DNA from: Oscillospiraceae bacterium
GTDB taxonomy: Bacteria; Bacillota; Clostridia; Oscillospirales; Ruminococcaceae
DNA: 51,257 nt
Assembly: GCA_018110825.1 (NCBI GenBank)
Contig: JAGBCL010000015.1
Coordinates: 1 to 51,257, forward strand
Reading direction: 5' to 3'
In this document: piece by piece, positions 1,532 through 36,456 of the stretch
Numbering within the stretch: the stretch's first letter is position 1
Layout of the letters: each line of letters opens with the position of its first letter
The notes under the pieces: model-generated
The model's database searches: none
The model's input: only the letters and a program-made list of their open reading frames with translations
Told to the model about the DNA's origin: nothing
Made by a program: the position numbers and the translations under genes

Positions 1532-1554
1532 ATTATAATTTAGCGAGCAATAAT

Positions 1555-2016
1555 GGGTTTCCAAAGGGGACAGTGTCCCCTTTGGTGGGGGTCTTGGGGG
1601 CAAAGCCCCTGAGGCGCCGCTCGCAAGCGGCGAAATTCCTGCTTCGCCCGTAGGCGTGCTTTAAGCGCATCTAAAGGGTGAATTTCGCAACGTGTTGCGA
1701 AAGAGGGATTTTCTGCAAGAGAGAAAATCCCTAACAGCAACGAAGTTGCTGCTTTTGTATGGCTGTAATGATAAAATACGTTCAAAACGTTCCACTGGAA
1801 CGTTTTGAAGGAACAACTTTCCGTAAGCCATACAAGGAGGGGCGGTCTTGTTCGCCCCTCCTCGAAATGCTGTCGCATTTCTCACCTCCTGCTCCGTTTT
1901 TCAAGGCAAGGGGATATTTCGCCCGTTGCGGAAACCATTTAAAGAATGGTTTTAGCGACTCAGGGACTCCGTCCCTAAGAACCCTGCCAAAGGGAACGAG
2001 TTCCCTTTGGAAACCC
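1555..2016. repeat. Family 3 compound palindromic repeat (two units head to head)
   Basis: This fills the 554-base gap between dnaB and tilS. It is bounded by GGGTTTCCAAAGGG at the left and its inverted copy at the right. Inside is a run of about a dozen perfect or near-perfect hairpins, for example CCAAAGGGGAC/GTCCCCTTTGG, CGCCGCT/AGCGGCG, GGGATTTTCT/AGAAAATCCC, AGGAGGGGCG/CGCCCCTCCT and GAAATGC/GCATTTC. The left half matches the element at 27448-27649 in its linkers but not in its stems. The right half, inverted, matches those at 5451 and 11499. I see no coding function. Confidence 0.8.
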
Positions 2017-2085
2017 GTAGCCGCTTCGCTAATTCTAAAACAAAGATTATACCAAATAATAATTCACTAACAAAAGGAAACTGCA

Positions 2086-3408
2086 ATGATTTCAACCGTA
2101 AAGCTCACAATCCAAAAGCATACCATGCTTCTCGCAGGGGATTCTGTTTGCGTCGCTCTCTCAGGCGGTGCGGACAGCGTTGCCCTGCTTCTTGTGCTTT
2201 ATGAGCTTTCTGCGGAACTGAATTTCTCCCTTTCCGCTGTTCACGTCAACCACCTCCTCCGCGGCGAGGAAAGCAACCGTGACGAACAGTTCTGCTGTGA
2301 TTTGTGTGCACGGCTTGGTGTTCCTCTGCAAATCTTCCGTGAGGACGCTGCCGCTTTTTCACACTCACTCGGTGAGTCTGTGGAAACAGGTGCACGTGAA
2401 CTCCGTTACAGAATTTTTGACTCCCTCAAATGCGGCAAAATCGCTACTGCACACAACCTCAACGACAATGCCGAAACCCTTTTGTTCCGCCTTGCACGGG
2501 GCACGGGTCTCCACGGTCTGTCGGGAATTCCCGCTGTTCGCGGAAAAATTATCCGCCCGCTGATTGAGTGCACCCGTGACGAAATTGAGGTGTTCCTTGC
2601 CGAAAAAAATCAGCCTTTTGTAACCGACAGCACAAACCTTTCCGACGATTACGCAAGAAACAGAATCCGCCACCGCATTGTTCCCGAAATGAAAGCTGTG
2701 CACGGTGCTTTTCCGCATTGCGTAACCCGAATGGTTCAGAGTTTTGCCGAGGACGAGGACTTTTTAACAGCCGAAGCAAAAAAATGTGAAAAGCAAAGTC
2801 TTTTCACTCTTCACCCAGCAATCAGAAAACGTGTTATCATAAATCAGCTGAAATCGCATAACCTTAAAGTATATACCGAAAAAATTGAGGAAATCGAGTC
2901 CGCTTTGCTTCTTCACAAAAGCAGGGTAATGCTCGAAAACGGCTTCTTTGCTGCGTTTGACAAGGGTGTAATGCGTATTTACAAGGAGCAGACAACAGAA
3001 AATCCCGAAGCTGTTGTTACCGAATTCGACAAGGAATATCCCTTCAACGGTGACAGAATTGTGATAATCTCGGTACAATCAGGCGAAATTGCCCCTGTAA
3101 CAGATATTGTTAATAAAAAATCCACAATTTACTACGCAGATTATGATACAATACAAGGTGATATTGTTTTGAGGAACAGACTGAGAAATGATGTCATCAA
3201 ACCCGTGAATTCCGTTCATACAAAGGAATTGCGGAAAATTTTACAGCAGAAGCTTCCACCCGAAAAAAGAAAATCATCTGCCGTGCTTACCGATGAAAAT
3301 GGTATAATATGGGCGGAGCATGCGGGAATTGCCGAAAGGGTAAAACCACGCGAAAATACGGAAAATTACCTCAGAATAGAGATAATATATACTGACATTA
3401 CTAATTGA
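2086..3408 (+). CDS. tilS: tRNA(Ile)-lysidine synthetase TilS
   Basis: TilS ATP-dependently attaches lysine to C34 of the CAU-anticodon tRNA-Ile, so that it reads AUA and is charged with Ile. The PP-loop motif SGGADS is at residues 26-31 of a 440-residue protein. The N-terminal N-type ATPase domain is followed by a TilS-type C-terminal region ending around the KLPPEKR segment. AAAGGAAAC precedes the ATG. The stop lies 13 bases before ftsH, so the two are very likely cotranscribed, as in many Firmicutes. Confidence 0.95.
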
Positions 3409-5443: not shown

Positions 5444-5450
5444 AAATAAC

Positions 5451-5613
5451 GGGTTTCCAAAGGGAACAGTGTTCCCTTTGGCAGGGTTCTTAGGGACGGA
5501 GTCCCTGAGTCGCAAACAAACTTGTTTGTTTTGAGCAGAACGAGCGAAACACCCCTTGCCTCCCAAAACGGGGATAAGGGGAAGGGGAAGCGGACACGAC
5601 CGCTTCCCCTTTG
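5451..5613. repeat. Family 3 compound palindromic repeat
   Basis: It starts with GGGTTTCCAAAGGG eight bases after the ftsH stop. Hairpins include CCAAAGGGAAC/GTTCCCTTTGG, AGGGAC-gga-GTCCCT, AAACAA-acttg-TTGTTT and GGGGAAGCG/CGCTTCCCC. Its first 60 bases match the inverted right end of the 1555-2016 element. The last hairpin may also terminate ftsH transcripts, although no clear poly-T tract follows. Confidence 0.7.
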
Positions 5614-8481: not shown

Positions 8482-8502
8482 CGTAAAAACCTCCAGTTTT
8501 TT

Positions 8503-8631
8503 AATGTGGAATTTGGAAAGTGAAATTAGGAATTATCCATAACCACACAGTTCATTTTTTCGTATTTGTTTTATTTCAGAAAATGGAGTGTGAAAACAAT
8601 AATTCCACATTCCACTTTCCTAATTTCAAAT
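8503..8631. repeat. Family 1 inverted-repeat element between serC and serA
   Basis: The arms at 8503-8532 and 8599-8631 are imperfect inverted copies using the words GTGGAATTTGGAAAGTGAAA and CCACATTCCACTTTCC. It sits inside the presumed serC-serA transcript, so it would be transcribed as a long imperfect hairpin. Confidence 0.65.
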
Positions 8632-8633
8632 TT

Positions 8634-9716
8634 TTAAGCGTTTTCAGCTTCGAACTTCTTCATGAATTCTACAAGCTTTTCAACGCCTTCGATTGGCATA
8701 GCGTTGTAGATGGAAGCTCTCATACCGCCAACGCTGCGGTGACCCTTGAGGTTTTCAAAGCCTGCAGCCTTAGCTTCCTTAACAAACTTAGCATCGAGTT
8801 CTTCGTTGCCTGTTACGAATGGAACGTTCATGAGGGAACGGTCCTTCTTTTCAACAGTACCCTTGAAGAGCTTGGAGCTGTCGAGGAAATCATAAAGGAT
8901 AGCAGCCTTCTTTTCGTTGTGAGCCTTCATAGCTTCGAGGCCGCCCATCTTCTTGATCCACTTGAATACCTTACCGCAGATGTAGATACCGTAGCAAGGA
9001 GGTGTATTGTAAAGGCTGTCGTTGTCAGCCTGTGTCTTCCACTTGAGCATTGTTGGTGTGCCTGCAAGAACGTCATCTCTGATGAGGTCTTCACGGATAA
9101 TTGCAATTACAACACCTGCAGGGCCAACATTCTTCTGTACGCCGCCGTAGATTACGCCGTACTTTGTAACGTCAACAGGTTCGGAAAGGAAGCAGGAAGA
9201 AACGTCGGAAACAAGGTCCTTGCCCTTTGTGTTAGGGAGTTCCCAGAACTTTGTGCCGTAGATTGTATTGTTTTCGCAGATGTAAACGTAGTCTGCATCT
9301 TCAGGAATATCGAGGTCGGAGCAGTCAGGAATGTAGGAGAAAGTCTTGTCAGCGGAAGAAGCAACTGCAACAGCTTCGCCGTACATCTGAGCTTCCTGGT
9401 AAGCCTTCTTAGCCCACTGACCTGTAATTATGTAAGCAGCCTTCTTGTTCTTCATAAGGTTCATTGGAACTGCAGCAAACTGCTGGGAAGCACCACCCTG
9501 AAGGAAGAGCACCTTGTAGTTGTCAGGAATGTTCATAAGGTCACGGAGATCCTTTTCCGCATCCTTGATGATTTCGTCGTACACCTTGGAACGGTGGGAC
9601 ATTTCCATAACGGACATACCTGAACCCTTGTAGTCAAGCATTTCTTCTGCTGCTTCTCTGAGAACTTCCTCAGGGAGTACAGCGGGGCCTGCGCTGAAAT
9701 TATAAACTCTGGACAT
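8634..9716 (-). CDS. serC: Phosphoserine aminotransferase
   Basis: SerC is a PLP enzyme converting 3-phosphohydroxypyruvate and glutamate to phosphoserine. I chose the ATG at 9716 (MSRVYNFSAGPAVLP), giving 360 residues, the family length. An upstream in-frame start would add 20 residues, but GGAGGTCATTAAA lies directly before 9716. The Schiff-base lysine is K195 in GGVQKNVGPAG. LQGGASQQF near 72-80 binds the cofactor phosphate. It lies upstream of serA on the same strand and behind a strong promoter. Confidence 0.95.
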   Translation of the reverse strand: MSRVYNFSAGPAVLPEEVLREAAEEMLDYKGSGMSVMEMSHRSKVYDEIIKDAEKDLRDLMNIPDNYKVLFLQGGASQQFAAVPMNLMKNKKAAYIITGQWAKKAYQEAQMYGEAVAVASSADKTFSYIPDCSDLDIPEDADYVYICENNTIYGTKFWELPNTKGKDLVSDVSSCFLSEPVDVTKYGVIYGGVQKNVGPAGVVIAIIREDLIRDDVLAGTPTMLKWKTQADNDSLYNTPPCYGIYICGKVFKWIKKMGGLEAMKAHNEKKAAILYDFLDSSKLFKGTVEKKDRSLMNVPFVTGNEELDAKFVKEAKAAGFENLKGHRSVGGMRASIYNAMPIEGVEKLVEFMKKFEAENA

Positions 9717-10084: not shown

Positions 10085-11437
10085 ATGAAATCCTTTGATG
10101 AGGTTTTTCAGAATGTGCAGGAATACTGCCTCGATAAGATAAAAAAAGGAGAACTTTCAGATACAGCTTACCGCCTCTGGATTAACACACTCCAGCCTGT
10201 AAAGCTTGACGAAAATGTTGCCTGCTTTACGGTACCATCTGAATTTCAGGCAAACATTATCAAAAAGAATTATACTTCAATCATAAAAGCCGCCCTCGAA
10301 AGCGTTCTCGGTTTTGAAGTAGATATAGATATTACCGCTGCGGAGGAAATCCTCGACGATGATGAGGATACCGACCCTAATCAGCTGAAAAAGGAACTTG
10401 AAGAGTCCTTTACCAACGCTGAGTACGACTATACCTTCGACACATTCATCGTGGGACGTTCAAATGAATTCGCTTATGCCGCTTGTACTTCAGTTGCAAA
10501 AGAACCCGGCAGCACATATAACCCGCTGTTTATCCACGGTCCGTCAGGTCTCGGAAAAACTCACCTTATGACCGCTATCAGCAACGAAATCAAACGCCGC
10601 AACCCTAAGACAAACATCATTTACGTTACGGGCGAAACCTTTGCAAATGAGCTTATCAACGCTATCCAGCAGAAAAAGGATACAAGCCAGTTCCACCAGA
10701 AATACAGAAGCGCTGACGTGCTGCTTATCGACGACGTGCAGTTCATCGCAGGCAAGGAGTCCACACAGGAAGAATTCTTCCATACATTCAATGAGCTTCA
10801 TAAGGTCGGCAAACAGATTGTTCTCACATCTGACCGTCCGCCGAAGGATATCAAAACCCTTGAGGAAAGAATCCGTACCCGTTTTGAATGGGGACTTATC
10901 GCAGATATTTCAATTCCTGACTTCGAAACAAGAGTTGCAATTATCCGCCGCAAGGCTGAACTTCTGAACCTTATCATTCCCGACGATGTTTCCGAATACA
11001 TAGCAAACAAGCTTAAAACAAATATCCGTCAGCTTGAAGGCTGTGTAAAGAAACTTAAAGCCAGCAAGCACCTTGTTGGTACACCGCCTTCCATGGCACA
11101 GGCACAGAACGCAATCAGAGAAATTCTTTCCGATGAACAGCCTGCACCAATCACAATCGAGCGTATCCTCAACGAGGTCGGCAACGTGTACGGCGTAAGT
11201 GCAGAAGATATCATTTCCAAAAAGAGAAGTGCACAGATTTCCATTGCACGAAAGGTAAGCTGTTACGTGCTTAAAGAAGTTACGGACATGTCATACAAAT
11301 CAATCGGTATGGAACTCGGAGCAAGAGACCACAGTACAATCATCTACTACTGCGGAGATATCGAAAAGCTCATAAAGAAAGATAACCACGCCAAGGAAAT
11401 GATTGAGGACATCATTAATAATATTAGGAACGCGTAA
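10085..11437 (+). CDS. dnaA: Chromosomal replication initiator DnaA
   Basis: DnaA binds oriC boxes and melts the origin in its ATP form. It has 450 residues. Domain I covers about 1-80 and is followed by a short acidic linker (EEILDDDEDTD). The AAA+ domain has the Walker A motif GPSGLGKT at 152-159 and Walker B LLIDDVQF. Domain IV carries the DNA-binding signature GARDHSTI near 417. GGAAGGAG precedes the ATG. dnaN follows after a large non-coding origin region. Confidence 0.98.
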   Translation: MKSFDEVFQNVQEYCLDKIKKGELSDTAYRLWINTLQPVKLDENVACFTVPSEFQANIIKKNYTSIIKAALESVLGFEVDIDITAAEEILDDDEDTDPNQLKKELEESFTNAEYDYTFDTFIVGRSNEFAYAACTSVAKEPGSTYNPLFIHGPSGLGKTHLMTAISNEIKRRNPKTNIIYVTGETFANELINAIQQKKDTSQFHQKYRSADVLLIDDVQFIAGKESTQEEFFHTFNELHKVGKQIVLTSDRPPKDIKTLEERIRTRFEWGLIADISIPDFETRVAIIRRKAELLNLIIPDDVSEYIANKLKTNIRQLEGCVKKLKASKHLVGTPPSMAQAQNAIREILSDEQPAPITIERILNEVGNVYGVSAEDIISKKRSAQISIARKVSCYVLKEVTDMSYKSIGMELGARDHSTIIYYCGDIEKLIKKDNHAKEMIEDIINNIRNA

Positions 11438-11498
11438 TTAAATCAAAATCAGAGATTTTGTTTCAGTGTTAGCGAAGCGACCTAAAAAGTTTCGTCCA

Positions 11499-11662
11499 CC
11501 TTTTCAAAGGTGGTGGGGGTCTTGGGGGCAAAGCCCTTTGGTCGCCAAAACCATTCTTCGAATGGTCTACGCAAGCGGCGAAAAACCCTATCGTTCAAAA
11601 CGGAGAAAGAGGTGAGGAATGCGACAGCATTCCGAGGAGAAGCGAACAAGACCGCTTCTCCT
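11499..11662. repeat. Family 3 compound palindromic repeat beside oriC
   Basis: Hairpins in order: CCACCTTTT/AAAGGTGG, GGGCAAAGCCC, ACCATTC-ttc-GAATGGT, GGAATGC-gaca-GCATTCC and AGGAGAAGCG-aacaagac-CGCTTCTCCT. The last two share their loops with the 1555-2016 element read on the other strand (stems GAAATGC and AGGAGGGGCG there), with base changes compensated on both arms. It lies immediately after dnaA, at the left edge of the origin region. Confidence 0.75.
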
Positions 11663-11732
11663 ACTATCAAATTTCAATAATCTTTCCTCCAAAACGTGCC
11701 AGTGACACGTTTTGGACGCAATAACCTTGTTT

Positions 11733-12200
11733 TTCTCCACATATGTTGAAAACAAAAAAAACCCCCCCGAAAAAACTCATAAAAAACTGTAAAGTAAAAA
11801 TTACAATCAGTTGTAAAATAAAGTTTTCAACAGGGTGTGGAAAACAATGTTGAAAATTAAATTTCACGGTTTTATGCCGTGTAACTCCGTTACATTACAT
11901 TTTGTATAAACCACTTTTCAACATTTTGTGATGTTCCAATAAAAGGAACGGGTTTTCCACTGACTTTTCAAGATTTTTTCCACTTTCCACTAACAGCTTC
12001 CACCATTATTCAACAGGGAAAAAACTGTTTTAACTTTTCAACAAATAATCAACATCAGTCAGGTGAAAAAACAAAGCTTGTCCAGAAAACGGTTTGAGTT
12101 CCCTTTCAACACTTTGGACACCCCCTACTGCTGCTACTGTTTAATTATTATCATATTATATTGATTTTACTTTTTTGCAAAGCAAATAAATTTGCATCGC
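11733..12200 (+). other. oriC: Probable oriC between dnaA and dnaN
   Basis: This gap holds many DnaA-box-like nonamers differing from TTATCCACA by one to three bases: TTCTCCACA (11733), TTTTCAACA (11824, 11915, 12035), TGTGGAAAA (11836, inverted) and TTTTCCACT (11953, 11976). Next come CCCCC (12121-12125) and CTACTGCTGCTACTG (12125-12139), whose complementary strand reads 3'-GAT-GAC-GAC-GAT-GAC-5', the DnaA-trio pattern of Bacillus-type origins. A strongly AT-rich stretch (12140-12200), the likely unwinding element, follows. Position between dnaA and dnaN agrees. The assignment is inference from motif and context. Confidence 0.75.
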
Positions 12201-12318
12201 AAAAAATTTCTCTGTCAAAGAAAAATTATCTGTCATACAGAGTTTGAAAAACAAAGAGCACGTCATTTCCGCCCTTATTGCTCAAACTCCGAAACTAAAA
12301 ATAGGAGGAACGTGACAT

Positions 12319-13428
12319 ATGAAATTTACATGTAAACAAGCCGAAATCAATGAAGCCCTTGCAAATGTATCAAGAGCCGTGCCTCAGAAGTCACCGCTGA
12401 CTGCTCTCGAAGGCGTAAAGCTCTACCTGAACAGAAATACCCTCGAACTGACAGGTTATGACCTTGAACTGGGTATCCAGACAAAAATCAATGCAGTTTC
12501 CGATGATATCGGCGAGTGTATCCTCAACAGCAAGCTTTTCGGAGAAATTATCCGTAAGATGCCTTCCGAAACAATCGAAATCGAAATTGATGACAGCCTT
12601 ACAACCACAATCAGAGGCTTCAATACAGAATATAAAATCCTCGCTATGCCTGCTGACGAATATCCGTCAATTCCTGACTACGACACAGGCGATAACTTCA
12701 CTATCCCTCAGCCTATGCTGAAAAATATGATTAATCAGACAATCTTCGCAGTTGCAGTTGTTGACAACAAGCCTATCCTTATGGGTGAGCTTTTCGATAT
12801 CCTCGATTACAACTTCAACCTCGTTGCAATCGACGGCTACCGCCTTGCAGTAAGAAGCGAAAGAATCGAGTCTGACAACCATTACCATTTCGTAGTAAAG
12901 GCAAAGGCACTTTCTGAAGTTTCAAAGCTTCTCAAGGACGACGAAAAGGAAACTGTTACCATGCACGTTTCAAAGAAGCATATCACCTTTGAAATCGGCA
13001 AGTATATGCTTTTCTCGCGTCTGCTTGAGGGTGACTTCCATAACTATAAGGGCTCTATCCCTGCAAATCACAATACCGAAATTGTTATCAATACAAGAGA
13101 ATTCATCTCCACACTTGAAAGATGTATGCTTCTTATCAACGAAAAGGCAAAAGCACCTGTAAGATGCGTGTTCAAGGACGGCAAAGTAAAGCTTTCCTGC
13201 TCAACTGCCTTGGGTAAGTTTGTCGACGAAATGGAAGCAGATACAGCAGGTCCGTCAGTAGAAATAGGATTCAATTGCCGTTATCTCCTTGACGCACTGA
13301 AGGCTACCGAGTCCGATAAGGTAAGACTCCAGCTCAATGGCGGACTTTCCCCGATGAAGATAGTACCGATGGACGGAAACGCATATACATTCCTGGTGCT
13401 TCCGACAAGACTGAAAAACGAAAGCTAA
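12319..13428 (+). CDS. dnaN: DNA polymerase III beta sliding clamp
   Basis: DnaN is the processivity clamp, a homodimer of three repeated domains per chain, loaded around DNA and bound by the polymerase and many partners. The 369 residues are the usual length, and the fold repeats begin [14 protein letters not shown]. The clamp normally ends shortly after a motif like LVLPTR; here four extra residues (KNES) follow, encoded by the left arm of a family 2 hairpin that also carries the stop codon. AGGAGGAACG precedes the ATG. Confidence 0.97.

Positions 13429-15088: not shown

Positions 15089-15116
<28 letters not shown>
14853..15116 (+). CDS. remB: Extracellular matrix regulator RemB (DUF370)
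   Basis: This 87-residue protein begins MYIHLGEETTVRGSEVIGIFD, the clear RemB/DUF370 pattern. In Bacillus, RemB sits at the same place and helps activate matrix genes. It starts with GTG directly after the recF TGA. The natural domain ends near ISPISAATLRKR, after which about seven residues (IRNVKSEK region) are encoded by a family 1 repeat. The gene therefore appears to have acquired a repeat-derived tail and stop. The function here is inferred from family and position. Confidence 0.88.
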
Positions 15117-17143
<2,027 letters not shown>

Positions 17144-17147
17144 TTAG

Positions 17148-17206
17148 AAATTTGAAAAGTGGAATGAGGAATTAAAGAGAAAATTTCTCATTCCAAATTC
17201 CACTTT
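17148..17206. repeat. Family 1 inverted repeat after gyrB
   Basis: The arms AAATTTGAAAAGTGGAATGA and TCATTCCAAATTCCACTTT are imperfect inverted copies around a short AT loop. The repeat fills the gap between gyrB and the next gene. Confidence 0.65.
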
Positions 17207-17224
17207 AATAAAAAGGAGTAAAAA

Positions 17225-20660: not shown

Positions 20661-20732
20661 CTTGTAAACTATTGAGGGAGACCCTTTTGAAAAAGGGTCC
20701 TCCCTCAAACTCCCTCCCTAAAACTTCTAATG

Positions 20733-20773
20733 TAAAATACCCCATAGAGCAAATAGCTCTATGGGGTATTTTA
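20733..20773 (+). terminator. Strong palindrome downstream of gyrA
   Basis: This is an 18-base perfect stem, TAAAATACCCCATAGAGC against its complement, with a 5-base loop. It is very stable but lacks a T run beyond the stem. A second hairpin (about 20674-20706, GAGGGAGACCCTTTT/AAAAGGGTCCTCCCTC) lies between it and gyrA. Together they likely stop gyrA transcription. The rest of the gap to nifJ holds an imperfect hairpin around 20795-20835 (CTGGGGAA/TTCCCCAG). Confidence 0.65.
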
Positions 20774-20860
20774 GACTGAAAGTCTTTGGAAAAGGGTCTG
20801 GGGAATAACCTTTCTTCAGAAAGGTTTTCCCCAGTAGGCTACAGGATATCTTTCTCCAAC

Positions 20861-24673: not shown

Positions 24674-24796
24674 GAATGTGGAAAGTGAAAAGTGGAATGA
24701 GGAATTAATGTTGTCGGCTTCGCCGACAATTTAAAATTCGTCCGCCAAAGGCGGAGACAATAATTTCACTTTCCTCATTCCTAATTCCACATTCAG
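24674..24796. repeat. Family 1 element, inverted copy of 4-124
   Basis: Read on the - strand, this is nearly identical to 4-124: the same outer arms, TTGTCGGC-gaa-GCCGACAA and CCGCCTTTGGCGG hairpins, and the same ATTATAATTTA flank. It sits between the nifJ and rpmH promoters. Confidence 0.8.
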
Positions 24797-24888
24797 AAAG
24801 ATAAATCCCAATTTAATGTTCAAAATAACCAACTTTTCCACCTGTAAAAATAAAATTTGTGAAAAAATAAAAAAATTGCGAAAAACAC

Positions 24889-26145: not shown

Positions 26146-27333
26146 ATGACTATTAAAATGAGCGAAATTATCGGTTACCCATTAGGCTGGGTCATGTGGC
26201 TTATGTATCAGATTACAGACAACTATGCGTGGTCAATCGTAATCTTTACATTAATCATCAAAATTCTTCTTTTCCCATTATCCGTAAAACAGCAGAAATC
26301 TTCCGCTGCAATGGCTGCCTTCCAGCCAAAGCTTGAAAAGCTGAAGAAGCAGTATGCAAACAACCAGCAGAAACTCCAGGAAGAGCAGATGAAGCTTTAC
26401 TCCGAAGAGGGCATCAACCCTATGGCAAGCTGTCTGCCGCTGTTTATCCAGCTCCCTATCCTCTATGGTGTGTTCGACGTTGTTTATCGTCCTATCACTC
26501 ATATTGTACGTGCAGGTAAGGACGTTATCGAAAGCGCAAAGGTTATCGCAAAGGGCCTTATGGAAGCTGCAGGCGTAACTGATTTTGCAAACTTCAATCA
26601 GCGTCCCGAAATTTATATCGTAAAGGAAGTTCAGAAGAACCCTGACGCTTTCGCAAGCCTCAACAACCCTGAGTTTGTAGAGGAAGTTTCCAACTTCAAC
26701 AACAAGCTTTTCGGTATCGTTGACCTGGGCGATATCCCTACCCTCAAGCCTGAGGTGTGGAACACTGCCGCAATTATCCTTATCCTTATTCCTGTTATGT
26801 CCGGTCTTATCCAGATGATTATGACCATTTATTCTCAGGTGAGAAGCAAGAAGCTCAACCCTGATGCTCCAAGTATGGCAGGTATGAACATTATGCTCTA
26901 TATCATGCCAATTTTCTCTGTGTGGATTGCGTTCAGCTTCCCTGCAGGTATCGGTTTCTACTGGACAATGTCCTCACTGTTCAGCTTTGTTCAGTCAATT
27001 ATCCTCTACAACATCTATACTCCTGAGTACGTTGCAAAGCTTGTGGAAAAGGACAAGGAAAAGCGTAAGAAGAAGAACCGCCCCAATATGATGGAACGTT
27101 ACCAGCAGATGATGGAAGAACAGATGGCTCAGCAGAACGGAGGAAAGGGTGCAGCGTCTGCTTCCAACAATAATAAGAAGATTGCAACAGCTAAATCCAC
27201 TGATGACGAGGGCAGCGAAGTGAAGATTTCCCGTTCAAAGCAGAAGGAATATGAAAAGATGATTATCCGTGAAGCACGCCGCAGACAGGCTGAAAAGTAC
27301 GGCGAGGAATTCATCGACGACGACGAGGAATAA
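26146..27333 (+). CDS. yidC: Membrane insertase YidC/SpoIIIJ
   Basis: YidC inserts membrane proteins with or without Sec. It has 395 residues and five hydrophobic segments starting with YPLGWVMWLMYQITDNYAWSIVIFTL, a hydrophilic coiled loop (LEKLKKQYANNQQKLQEEQMKLYSEEG) and the conserved NPMASCLPLFIQLPILYGVF. The basic C-terminal tail is ribosome-binding in other species. No lipobox is present. The start is uncertain: ATG 26146 or 26158. GGAGG (26121) is 20 bases upstream and the space between is an 8-bp hairpin, ATTTTCCC-tgtc-GGGAAAAT (26128-26147). If folded, the hairpin would bring the site closer. Confidence 0.93.
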   Translation: MTIKMSEIIGYPLGWVMWLMYQITDNYAWSIVIFTLIIKILLFPLSVKQQKSSAAMAAFQPKLEKLKKQYANNQQKLQEEQMKLYSEEGINPMASCLPLFIQLPILYGVFDVVYRPITHIVRAGKDVIESAKVIAKGLMEAAGVTDFANFNQRPEIYIVKEVQKNPDAFASLNNPEFVEEVSNFNNKLFGIVDLGDIPTLKPEVWNTAAIILILIPVMSGLIQMIMTIYSQVRSKKLNPDAPSMAGMNIMLYIMPIFSVWIAFSFPAGIGFYWTMSSLFSFVQSIILYNIYTPEYVAKLVEKDKEKRKKKNRPNMMERYQQMMEEQMAQQNGGKGAASASNNNKKIATAKSTDDEGSEVKISRSKQKEYEKMIIREARRRQAEKYGEEFIDDDEE

Positions 27334-27360
27334 ATTCGGAATGCGGAATTCGTAATTAAA

Positions 27361-27420
27361 ACAACCGCAAGCGGTTGTTTCCGAGTTTCCCTTCGGGAAA
27401 CGTCGGAGTTTGTACAACAA
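27361..27420. repeat. Family 2 two-hairpin repeat after yidC
   Basis: Hairpin ACAACCGC-aa-GCGGTTGT, linker TTCCGA, hairpin GTTTCCC-ttc-GGGAAAC, then GTCGGAGTTTGTACAACAA. CCGA pairs with TCGG around hairpin two, where the copies at 13417 and 30215 have ACGG with CCGT. A family 1 fragment (27333-27358) precedes it. Confidence 0.7.
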
Positions 27421-27447
27421 TTGAAATGTTTTGGTAACCTAAATAAT

Positions 27448-27649
27448 GGGTTTCCAAAGGGTGTGCGCACCCTTTGGCAGGGTACTTAGGGACGGAGTCC
27501 CTAAGTCGTCCTCCGCAGAGGACGAAATACCTGCTTCGCCCGCAGGCGTGCTTTAAGCGCCTCTAAAGGGTGAATTTTGAAGCGTGAGCTTCAAAAGAGG
27601 GATTTTCTGCAAGAGAGAAAATCCTTAACAGTGGCGAAGCCACTGCCCA
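27448..27649. repeat. Family 3 compound palindromic repeat upstream of jag
   Basis: It aligns module by module with 1555-1755. Hairpins: CCAAAGGGTG/CGCACCCTTTGG, CTTAGGGAC-gga-GTCCCTAAG, CGTCCTC-cgc-AGAGGACG, TGAAGC-gtga-GCTTCA, GGATTTTCT/AGAAAATCC and AGTGGC-gaa-GCCACT. Linkers such as CCTGCTTCGCCCG and GGCGTGCTTTAAGCGC are shared with 1555-1755, while the stems differ. A TATAAT (27705-27710) lies between it and jag but has no convincing -35. Confidence 0.8.
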
Positions 27650-27738
27650 CTTCTATCTCAATTATAAAAAGCATATATAAGCCTTTAACAGACCCAGAGG
27701 TCTGTATAATATTAGTCAAAATTGAAAGGAAGGTCAGT

Positions 27739-28542
27739 ATGGCAGAAATCAAAAAAATCTTCACAGCAAAGTCCATAGAGGAAGCTAAGGCTATGGCAGC
27801 ACAGGAATTCGGTGCTGAAGAAAGCAAAATCACCTTCAATGTAATCGAAGAACCGAAAAAGGGTCTGTTCGGCAAGGTAAAGGGCGAAGCAAAGGTAGAA
27901 GCTTCCTATGAACAGTCCAAGGCACAGCTCGCAGGCGAGTACATCAAGTCAATCCTCGCAAATATGGGTATCGCAAATGATATCAGTATCGAAGAATCCG
28001 AAGATGGTGCAACAATCGAAATCCTCGGCGATACAACAGGTGCAGTAATCGGCAGACGCGGCGAAACTCTCGACGCTATCCAGTACCTCGCATCCATGAC
28101 CGCAAACCGCGGCGATAAGGAATATTACAGAATTACAGTTGACTGTTGCGGTTACCGTGAAAAGAGAAAGGCAATCCTTGAAGAACTTGCTGCAAAAATT
28201 GCAAAGACAGTTCTCCGCACAGGCAGAACCTCTACTCTTGAACCAATGAACCCATACGAAAGAAGAATTATCCACTCCGCAGTTGCAAACATTGAGGGAG
28301 TAACTTCTAAGAGCATCGGCGAAGAGCCATACAGAAAGGTTGTTATTTCTTCCACAAATCCACGTCCTAAGAAGGATTTCAAGGGCGACCGCAGACCACG
28401 CAGACGTGACAAGAATCCTGATGAGTACACACCACGCTCAATGGATATGATGAAAACTTCCTTTGAGAAGGACTATAAGCGTCCGAAGCCTGAGGACAGC
28501 CTCCTGGTTGAAGGCGACCTCTACGGCAAAATTGATATCTAA
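27739..28542 (+). CDS. jag: RNA-binding protein Jag/KhpB (KH and R3H domains)
   Basis: I chose the ATG at 27739 (MAEIKKIFTAKSIEEAKAMA), 267 residues, with GGAAGG ahead; upstream in-frame sequence is repeat-derived. The Jag_N domain is at about 1-50 with KKGLFGKVKGEAKVE. The KH domain has the GRRG loop (GAVIGRRGETLDAIQYL, about 107-125). The R3H domain covers about 170-230 (MNPYERRIIHSAV). A basic, Arg/Lys-rich tail follows. Jag/KhpB binds RNA and influences cell elongation and division in Gram-positives. It is cotranscribed with yidC in many species. Confidence 0.94.
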   Translation: MAEIKKIFTAKSIEEAKAMAAQEFGAEESKITFNVIEEPKKGLFGKVKGEAKVEASYEQSKAQLAGEYIKSILANMGIANDISIEESEDGATIEILGDTTGAVIGRRGETLDAIQYLASMTANRGDKEYYRITVDCCGYREKRKAILEELAAKIAKTVLRTGRTSTLEPMNPYERRIIHSAVANIEGVTSKSIGEEPYRKVVISSTNPRPKKDFKGDRRPRRRDKNPDEYTPRSMDMMKTSFEKDYKRPKPEDSLLVEGDLYGKIDI

Positions 28543-28563: not shown

Positions 28564-28599
28564 GGGAACATGGGAGCAAATCCCGTGTTCCTGTTTTTA
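28564..28599 (+). terminator. Terminator after jag
   Basis: The stem GGAACATGGGA/TCCCGTGTTCC has a 5-base loop and is followed by GTTTTTA. Confidence 0.8.
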
Positions 28600-28605
28600 A
28601 TTAAG

Positions 28606-28692
28606 AAAGTGGAATGTGAAAAGTGAAATTGAAATTGAATAAACTTGAAGTTGATTTTATAATTTCACTTTTCACATTCCAAATTTCACATT
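28606..28692. repeat. Family 1 inverted repeat upstream of mnmE
   Basis: The arms AAAGTGGAATGTGAAAAGTG and CACTTTTCACATTCC are inverted copies flanking an AT-rich middle. The mnmE ribosome-binding site follows directly. Confidence 0.7.
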
Positions 28693-28709
28693 TATATGGA
28701 GGAGTAACT

Positions 28710-34664: not shown

Positions 34665-35537
34665 ATGGCTAAAAAAGCAGGATTAGGAATGGGTCTGGAC
34701 GCACTTTTCGGAGACAACACAGGCGAAAGTGCAGGCGTGCAGACTCTCAGAGTTGCAGATATAGAACCAAACCGTAAACAGCCACGTCAGACTTTTGACG
34801 ATGCGGCAATCGCTGAGCTTGCGGACAGTATCCGTCAACACGGTTTAATTCAGCCGATTGTAGTGCGTTCAATGGGCACGAATTATCAGATTGTGGCAGG
34901 TGAACGCCGCTGGAGAGCCTGCAGAATGCTTGGAATGAGCGAGGTTCCCGTTATTATTAAGGAACTTGATGATGCTCAGACAGCACAGATTGCCCTGATT
35001 GAGAACATTCAGCGTGAGGATTTGAATCCTGTTGAAGAGGCAATGGCTTACCGTGCTCTTATGGAGGACCACAATATGACTCAGGAGGAGTTGTCGAAAA
35101 TTGTTGGCAAGTCCCGTTCGTCAATTGCAAATGCAGTGCGTCTGCTTAATCTTCCCGACGAGGTTGTTGAACTGCTGAAAAAGCGTGAGATTACCTCGGG
35201 ACAAGCCAAGGCACTTGCTGCTGCGGAAACTGATGAGGAAATGATTGAGCTTGCAAAACTTGCTGCTGCGGGAAAAATCACCGTAAGAGGCATTGAAAAG
35301 GCAATTGCAAAGGCTGCAAACGAGGACGATGACGAGCCTGGGCGTGAAAAAGCACCAAAAACTGCTGAGGAACGTGCAAATCACAGCTTTATTACCGAAA
35401 TGCAGCTGAGTCTTGAAAATCACCTTGAAAGAAAGGTGCGTATTTCATCATCTGATGGCGTAAAAGGAACAATTACAATTGATTTTTACGACCAGGACGA
35501 ACTTACAACGCTTGCAGACAAGCTTACGATGTATTGA
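34665..35537 (+). CDS. spo0J: Chromosome partition protein ParB/Spo0J
   Basis: ParB is a CTP-dependent clamp loaded at parS that spreads and recruits SMC. It has 290 residues. The N-terminal CTPase domain includes PNRKQPRQTFDD, the GERRWRA box and the phosphate-binding ENIQREDLNPVEEA. The helix-turn-helix is at about 125-160 (MTQEELSKIVGKSRSSIANAVRLL). The C-terminal dimerisation region is LENHLERKVRIS. The N-terminus MAKKAGLGMGLDALFGD is the ParA-stimulating motif typical of Spo0J. GGGAGGT precedes the ATG. Confidence 0.95.
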   Translation: MAKKAGLGMGLDALFGDNTGESAGVQTLRVADIEPNRKQPRQTFDDAAIAELADSIRQHGLIQPIVVRSMGTNYQIVAGERRWRACRMLGMSEVPVIIKELDDAQTAQIALIENIQREDLNPVEEAMAYRALMEDHNMTQEELSKIVGKSRSSIANAVRLLNLPDEVVELLKKREITSGQAKALAAAETDEEMIELAKLAAAGKITVRGIEKAIAKAANEDDDEPGREKAPKTAEERANHSFITEMQLSLENHLERKVRISSSDGVKGTITIDFYDQDELTTLADKLTMY

Positions 35538-35655: not shown

Positions 35656-36456
35656 ATGCTGTTTTCTGCAAAAGAAAAAGTTGTGGCAAAGGTAATTCAG
35701 GTTGAAATTGACAAAATTGAACCGAATCCGTATCAGCCAAGGCGTGAATTTGATGATATCGAGGCACTTGCACAAAGTATTGAGCAAAACGGAATTTTGC
35801 AGCCGCTGACGGTGCGCAGAACAGATGATACATTCCAGCTTGTGGCGGGGGAACGTCGGCTTCGTGCGGCAAAAATGCTTGGAATGGAGGTTGTTCCGTG
35901 TATTCCCGTGACGATTACAGAGCGAAATTCGGCGGTGATGGCACTTATTGAAAATATTCAGCGTCGTGACCTGACTTTTTTTGATGAGGCAGAAGCAATT
36001 GCAAAGCTGATAGATTTCTACGGAATGACTCAGGAGGACGCGGCAATAAAGCTTGGCAAATCACAGCCGTCAATTGCAAACAAGCTTCGTTTGCTGAAGC
36101 TGGACAAGCATGTCAGGAAAAAGGTTTCAGAGTACGGCCTGACAGAGCGTCATGCACGGGCGTTGCTCAGGCTTAAATTTCAGGAGCAGCAGCTTGCGGC
36201 GATAGAAATGTTCAGAAGCAAAAATATGAACGTTGAGGCGGCAGAAAGACACGTCGAGTTGATGCTGCAAAGTGAAAAGGATTTAGCAAGTCTGAAGAAG
36301 CGGAGTGTCGTGCTGAAGGACGTGCGGTTGTTCGTAAACACCCTTAACAAGGCTGTTGAAATGATGAAAGCAGCGGGAATTGATGCAAATTCCGAGCGTA
36401 TTCAGAGCGAGGATTACATAGAATATATCGTGAAAATTCCTGTGCAGAAGGATTGA
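35656..36456 (+). CDS. Second ParB-family protein, possibly Noc-like
   Basis: The 266-residue protein has the ParB N-domain (IEPNPYQPRREFDD, GERRLRAAKMLG, ENIQRRDLTFFDEA), a helix-turn-helix (MTQEDAAIKLGKSQPSIANKLRLL) and a different C-terminal region from Spo0J. It lacks the ParA-contacting N-terminal motif seen in Spo0J. Instead it starts MLFSAKEKVVAKVIQ, a short mildly amphipathic segment. Noc proteins (nucleoid occlusion) lie in this neighbourhood in Bacillus, lack ParA contacts and bind membrane by an N-terminal amphipathic helix, so Noc is plausible. GAAAGGAC precedes the ATG. Which sites it binds is not evident. Confidence 0.8.
   Translation: MLFSAKEKVVAKVIQVEIDKIEPNPYQPRREFDDIEALAQSIEQNGILQPLTVRRTDDTFQLVAGERRLRAAKMLGMEVVPCIPVTITERNSAVMALIENIQRRDLTFFDEAEAIAKLIDFYGMTQEDAAIKLGKSQPSIANKLRLLKLDKHVRKKVSEYGLTERHARALLRLKFQEQQLAAIEMFRSKNMNVEAAERHVELMLQSEKDLASLKKRSVVLKDVRLFVNTLNKAVEMMKAAGIDANSERIQSEDYIEYIVKIPVQKD

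Follow-up and report, generated by a model that had tools for sequence, protein, structure and literature searches.

A 51,257-nucleotide stretch of Oscillospiraceae DNA, here called the window, carries copies of an old modular palindromic repeat that has relatives across the bacterial order and in which partly conserved linkers string together as many as 13 hairpin cassettes. The arms of these hairpins show near-perfect Watson-Crick pairing, stems of the left core differ between copies as whole units, module alleles occur in mixed combinations, and the content of fixed loci varies. Between species, copies are present at some sites and missing from the same sites elsewhere. We put at about even the chance that this is a mobile DNA repeat whose hairpins are exchanged as cassettes, are kept palindromic at the DNA level and are moved by a putative trans-acting enzyme. 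Parts of the repeat resemble MITEs, REP sequences and BOX repeats, and its membership in each of the groups tested is incomplete.

In its full form the element strings together 13 palindromic modules, and modules 1–3 and 11–13 make up its inverted ends (Table 1). Terminal inverted repeats, at query positions 1-63 and 401-462, match in inverted orientation at 78%. Left halves (modules 1–7) and right halves (modules 8–13) are also found as solo copies. When positions 1546-2030 were folded as single-stranded DNA, the result had a z of -14.9 against 100 shuffles. The element is probably not protein-coding; mechanical open reading frames overlap it, and the copies in G000 and G003 differ by indels of one or two bases that would disrupt any common frame. 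In some copies, extra palindromes are inserted within modules or linkers, giving nested hairpins (L009 615-1140, L013 and L014).

Table 1. Repeat features of the window, with positions counted from its first letter.
Feature	Position	Strand	Context or remark
Another repeat family, GTGGAATG/CATTCCAC-like words in inverted pairs	85-128, 8496-8638, 15089-15183, 17142-17221, 24675-24813, 28599-28707
Full compound element	1546..2030	+	between dnaB (176-1531) and tilS (2086-3408)
Module 1, terminal palindrome CCAAAGGGGACAGTGTCCCCTTTGG	1561..1585		inverted partner is module 13
Module 2 hairpin GGGGC-AAA-GCCCC	1597..1609
Module 3 hairpin	1615..1632		loop CGCA; many matched stems
Linker CCTGCTTCGCCCG	1638..1650	+	also present in the copy at 27448
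Module 5 hairpin	1683..1702
Module 6 hairpin	1705..1731		loop GCAAGAG
Module 7 hairpin	1735..1751		loop GAA
Module 8 hairpin	1781..1809		loop ACT, ACC elsewhere; free-stem form found order-wide
Module 9 hairpin	1835..1862		loop GTCTTGTT
Module 10 hairpin	1864..1881		loop TGTC
Linker TCACCTCC	1882..1889	+	part co-varies with the module 9 5′ arm
Nested palindrome within module 11	1932..1953
Module 12 hairpin	1962..1976
Module 13	1987..2010		inverted partner is module 1
Internally deleted right half	5445..5613	-	between ftsH and ymdB
Right half (modules 8-13)	11485..11721	-	between dnaA and dnaN
Neighbouring hairpins, another palindromic family	27355..27410		aligned in place with G003
Left half (modules 1-7)	27441..27649	+	between a yidC-like gene (60KD_IMP) and jag

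The original prediction, made from the letters of the window, held that four repeats share loops and linkers while their stems differ with matched changes on both arms. Its quoted examples were all located: AGCAAC-gaa-GTTGCT at 1736 against AGTGGC-gaa-GCCACT at 27630, CGCCGCT/AGCGGCG (1615-1632) against CGTCCTC/GAGGACG, CGCAAC/GTTGCG (1686-1699) against TGAAGC/GCTTCA, and AGGAGGGGCG (1835) against AGGAGAAGCG of the copy that lies near 11640 on the minus strand. All four copies are real, and their description needed some adjustment. The third, on the minus strand, extends to about 11720. The copy at 27448 is a left half, that at 11499-11720 a right half, and that at 5451-5613 a right half with an internal deletion. 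Conservation does not extend to every linker; the spacer between modules 8 and 9 (~27 nt) is variable among copies. Across the window's genome, a sequence search returned 44 aligned pieces that were grouped into about 21 copies, and a later model search added one at C97:48277. Within the genus, 15 of 21 genomes contain element matches.

The matched-stem pattern extends beyond the four copies. A motif-free finder applied to 180 extracted element regions identified 1035 hairpin instances, with perfect arms in 935 and mismatches in 100. Covariation was assessed in an alignment of 24 left cores (A1, modules 5–7) and another of 28 right cores (A2, modules 8–10), in which 99.7% and 99.8% of cells are paired, respectively. 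Many uncompensated changes, or a lack of covariation, had been named in advance as the signs of chance or simple decay. Instead, 233 changed cells are two-sided (110 in A1, 123 in A2) and 7 are one-sided (3 and 4). In neither alignment did any of 500 shuffles reach the observed covariation score or paired share, and structures slid along the alignments pair about 40-54% of cells. The count of "further standard pair types" is no higher than in shuffles, of which 500/500 (A1) and 236/500 (A2) were at least as high.

Rows of both alignments were chosen by linker and loop motifs; A1 comprises 24 of 46 left cores, and A2 comprises 26 of 134 right cores together with two window copies, the omitted rows having failed the motif and length filter or duplicated another sequence. 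The paired share is raised because outer pairs overlap the selection motifs. In A1 these are pairs 7-29, 8-28, 9-27, 62-79 and 63-78, together with 32-58 and 33-57 on one side only; in A2 it is the closing pair of module 8. Such pairs contribute no changed cell except three one-sided cells at 32-58. Pairing stands at 94% in right cores whose linker identity falls under 60%, with a slight drop as linkers diverge (Spearman 0.26-0.28). A wider count with a sequence-only profile took in 51/84 and 123/197 hits. Regex censuses without context picked up background. Further, the 5′ arm of module 9 covaries with a third strand, the linker after module 10 (90.5% of cells paired), mainly through one column pair (A-T 15, G-C 12).

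The manner in which stems change is most evident in the left core. Slow double mutation predicts that one-sided changes appear first in near-identical copies, and the left core displays the reverse. Across 11 pairs of copies whose unpaired bases (about 25 nt) are identical, 48 of 286 base-pair cells differ, all 48 on both sides and none on one. Among left-core nearest neighbours (27 pairs), there are 120 two-sided against 9 one-sided changes, with differences at 24 of 685 unpaired positions. The same copies recur among the pairs of both comparisons, which are thus not independent. Right-core stems diverge along with the spacer, nearest neighbours there show 211 two-sided against 64 one-sided changes, and en-bloc stem change is less clear. 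A four-gamete analysis, with parsing that covered 26/46 left and 86/134 right cores, detected all four allele combinations for modules 6/7, 5/7 and 9/10, and no such case for the module 5 class against module 6. Because stems differ as units and module alleles mix, the hairpins behave as reassorted cassettes. Several stem alleles recur across many copies.

A search for inverted loops, which would be the clearest sign of template switching, found none for modules 3, 6, 9 and 10. Inverted and normal loops number 0 and 138 for module 3, 0 and 20 for module 6, and 0 and 59 for module 10. For module 9, the counts are 2 and 80, both inverted cases being opposite-strand readings of a nearly palindromic copy. 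For module 7, one TTC match was judged unrelated, and a single TTT loop stands against 28 normal loops. Template switching predicts some inverted loops and none is seen in these four modules; therefore, either the loops are selected or the exchange is of another kind.

Comparison of the same loci in sister species shows that stems differ there too. At dnaB-tilS, G000 and G003 both carry the full element in the same orientation, and across eight aligned hairpins 12 pairs have changed on both arms and 2 on one, the latter both in module 9, which looks chimeric. Arms at this locus have diverged by 17.3% and unpaired bases by 16.2%. Module 2, which is below the finder's length limit, has a one-arm break in G003. 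A flanking segment of ~50 bp that follows the element on its right side in G000 is found on the left side, in inverted form, in G003. In the more distant species G002 (TilS 60% identical), the same site holds two right halves, head to head.

Four further loci were placed by flank matches. The dnaA-dnaN site holds a right half in the window's genome and a left half in G003 and G004, and content or orientation also differs in sister species at the ftsH-ymdB site, one C18 site and one C36 site. Opposite element orientations occur at one locus in sister species. The copy at 27448 is absent from its site in G003. No clean target duplication was seen by eye at this empty site or at three G003 insertions set against sites of the window's genome. 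In each of two aligned hairpins of the neighbouring group at 27355-27410, two pairs differ from G003 on both arms and no pair differs on just one, and two more outer pairs were also matched by eye. Chance hairpins in coding DNA, by comparison, gave 6 two-sided against 33 one-sided changes. All intergenic hairpins of this genome against G003, with 24 skipped for gaps, gave 52 two-sided changes, 56 one-sided changes and 16 doubly changed unpaired cells. Since several of these intergenic alignments look non-homologous, only dnaB-tilS and the hairpins at 27355-27410 were used.

RNase P RNA served as a yardstick for a selected RNA. It was taken from 13 genomes of the same genus, using 13 of 16 full-length matches to RF00010 (RF00011 gave none in the genus), with a structure predicted from its own alignment. 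It has 72 two-sided against 29 one-sided changed cells. G-U pairs occupy 149 of its 1287 cells (11.6%), against 7 of 1483 (0.5%) in the elements, so the wobble tolerance on the transcribed strand that is expected of a selected structured RNA is nearly missing from the repeat. Hairpin mismatches comprise 12 G-T, 17 A-C and 38 others with the motif-free finder, and 34 G-T against 28 A-C in sequence-only profile alignments. Because A-C and G-T mismatches are about equally frequent, no strand looks RNA-protected overall. By itself, the left core has G-T above A-C, at 12:3 in the profile alignments, and left halves point the same way as the tandem genes that flank them in 10 of the 12 cases that could be used (p 0.04). 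This G-T excess and gene-wise orientation are a weak hint of an RNA role for the left half; right halves have no orientation bias (17 vs 22). At the gathering threshold, the curated models of Rfam 15 matched only two tRNAs within the window, and relaxing the threshold to E 0.1 brought no family to light in eight element loci. By a hand count, pair changes of the transversion type exceeded those in RNase P, though not significantly (21:22 vs 21:9, p 0.09).

A selected RNA is consequently not supported, given that wobble is nearly absent and mismatches are strand-balanced overall, the left core alone excepted. The original prediction had offered two readings, selection on the structure of an RNA or DNA and a copying process that rewrites whole palindromes. 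The evidence speaks against its RNA branch and supports a process at the DNA level that alters hairpins as whole units, as the two-sided differences at identical unpaired bases and the stem differences between sister species indicate. De novo rewriting by template switching gains no such support, inverted loops being absent from modules 3, 6, 9 and 10.

We propose that cassettes and half-elements are swapped between copies by recombination through their shared linkers and terminal palindromes. Exchange between copies would explain both the two-sided differences at identical unpaired bases and the stem differences at the same locus. New copies would be mobilised by a putative enzyme acting in trans. 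The arms would keep their complementarity because recognition or repair acts on the DNA hairpin or cruciform, and could be kept perfect either by selection for an extrudable hairpin or by hairpin-templated repair.

Among other explanations, one that we regard as unlikely is rewriting without function, in which template switching during replication copies arm to arm and stems drift as pairs, free of exchange or selection. It would account for the matched changes, the scarcity of intermediates, the balanced mismatches and the agreement of arm and unpaired-base divergence at dnaB-tilS. Such a mechanism has been described in RNA genes (PMC8794818), and for mitochondrial palindromes it has been raised as a possibility (PMC6649704). 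The failure to find inverted loops in four modules argues against it, many of the differing stems are recurrent alleles, and unselected drift leaves unexplained why loop and linker words recur in other families. Ordinary decaying MITEs, with stems matched by chance or descended from a few founder alleles, are harder still to credit, and we give them very little weight. The recurrence of several stem alleles in many copies and the mismatches in about a tenth of hairpins speak for them. However, decay fails as a full account under the shuffles, which never reached the observed covariation or pairing, under the mostly one-sided changes of chance coding hairpins, and under the order-wide free-stem matches described below.

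Two further explanations invoke a structure with a function. Folded single strands are bound by recombinase at integron attC sites and by transposase at IS200/IS605 ends, and a comparable functional DNA structure, bound through its loops while stems vary freely as long as they pair, seems to us quite improbable here. Conserved loops with variable complementary stems across genera would suit such a structure, as would the unoriented right halves and the one site without an element. In contrast, the five copy-rich genomes, two of them incomplete, lack a Y1 transposase match, the sites read by eye lack a clean duplication and, to our knowledge, the ends of known transposases and recombinases need fewer than thirteen hairpins. 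For a regulatory or catalytic RNA maintained by ordinary compensatory mutation, the strong covariation in both alignments, the third strand at module 9, which is reminiscent of an RNA switch, and the G-T excess and orientation of the left half can all be cited. We nevertheless find it very doubtful: the elements have a small fraction of the G-U pairs of RNase P, two-sided changes in the left core occur at zero unpaired-base divergence, Rfam models find nothing in the eight element loci, and orientation varies at one locus between sister species and among right halves.

Relatives of the repeat extend well beyond the genus. A 23-base long-form pattern matched 50 stretches in 84,980 species genomes. 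Of these, 48 belong to MAGs that bear the labels Oscillospiraceae, Ruminococcus or Clostridia, and several come from samples of colon, cecum or rectum. The other two (Anaerolineae, Bacteroides) had no right-core model match. The right-core model itself has matches in 8 of 119 genomes of the family; G049, of another genus, has 7 copies. When 295 genomes of the order were scanned for a module 8 pattern with three free letters per arm, 54 contained it, whereas a reversed control gave single hits in 4 genomes. Among the 150 matches listed, from 46 genomes, 142 have complementary free letters; independent arms would give about 2.3 such matches. These complementary matches represent 18 different stems. 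In a phylum-wide sample, the pattern is present in 15 of 398 genomes, mostly as single copies; one family outside the order includes two genomes with 7 and 3. Module 8 is more widespread than the element, since some order-wide copies lie outside the long chain, where they adjoin tRNA-like sequence. By eye, its palindrome in other families adjoins apparent tRNA 3′ ends or fragments (L223, L230, L232, L248 and L250).

An end-module pattern was found in 12 of 245 genomes, from four families of the order. Of the hairpins fetched, 18/30 are perfect over five pairs, comprising 18/24 in multi-copy genomes and 0/6 in single-match genomes, whose hits look like chance. G266 and G358 have modules resembling 8, 11, 12 and 13 in the same order, and words from the loops and linkers are shared by other families of this bacterial order. 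It is possible, although we hold this only tentatively, that the repeat is part of a system spanning the order, whose DNA hairpin cassettes are interchangeable. Its chains of palindromes would follow a conserved grammar of loops and linkers, stem pairs would be replaced as units by a DNA-level mechanism with the hairpin itself as the copying unit, and copies would be gathered near the replication origin. Positions 1546-2030 had no match among plasmid and phage records. A single hit in a scan of viral contigs was judged to be chance, as it lies in a low-complexity stretch within an open reading frame and has no right-core model match.

Comparison with known systems gives several partial likenesses. 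BOX repeats are modular. Mitochondrial double-hairpin elements and GC clusters resemble the present repeat in being small mobile palindromic elements, but belong to different genomes. REP and REPIN sequences with RAYTs are, in the available text of PMC3116915 and PMC3733652, short intergenic palindromes with many copies, thought to be moved in trans. Here, however, chains of distinct hairpins are much longer. PF01797 (Y1/RAYT transposase) has no match in the copy-rich G000, G002, G003, G004 and G005 (G002 is 78% and G004 70% complete), and the REPIN/RAYT link was dropped because of this. The family is matched in 4 of 21 genomes of the genus (G008, G012, G015 and G017), and of these only G008 has element matches.

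Pneumococcal BOX, RUP and SPRITE repeats, as portrayed in the text available for PMC3049150, are likewise interspersed, have extensive secondary structure and are thought to be parasitic. They occur in another bacterial class, and that text does not describe for them the matched stem replacement with conserved loops seen here. Template-switch hairpins also have perfect stems altered on both arms together, but those treated in PMC8794818 were inferred for RNA genes, and 78.5% of their two-step changes involve G-U. The present repeat has almost no G-U pairs, and no inverted loop was found in the four modules above. In hairworm mitochondrial coding palindromes, arms stay identical while the sequence varies among species, but these lie inside genes and the accessible part of PMC6649704 does not describe them as dispersed repeats sharing loops and linkers. 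No published description of the present repeat was found in the literature searched, which mostly excluded subscription journals.

Matched changes on two arms are usually taken as proof of a working RNA. The repeat provides a natural set with near-complete covariation, yet with wobble intermediates nearly absent, mismatches balanced overall and left-half stems that differ as units. Given this set, a covariation pipeline would presumably report an RNA gene. The set also opens an old question to testing, namely whether perfect palindromes are kept by selection on the fold or by copying from arm to arm.

These repeats occur in gut bacteria, and some copies are near the replication origin. The window resembles an origin region, with dnaA, dnaN, 60KD_IMP, jag and two ParB-domain genes (10085-13428, 26146-28542). 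Copies look clustered in it, with 4 of about 21 in 51 kb among the matches listed (binomial p 3e-4, for a window that was not blindly chosen). On orthologous contigs of G003, about 8 of 24 copies fall in 75 kb, again among the matches listed (binomial p 2e-7).

The window has other features. Six sites lie within 2 mismatches of TGTTCCACGTGGAACA, where none is expected (17962, 30109, 30199, 32809, 33336 and 34320), and we take these to be parS-like. Four of the six are followed by a hairpin with a variable stem, and they lie near two ParB-domain genes, the neighbours at 34665-35537 and 35656-36456, each with ParB N-terminal and ParB HTH domains. Another repeat family has GTGGAATG/CATTCCAC-like words in inverted pairs, and G004 carries a hairpin-cassette element at the site matching window positions 8494-8634. 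A further dispersed family of ~170 bp, at about 20661-20838, has many copies in G003 and G004 at roughly 84-94% identity.
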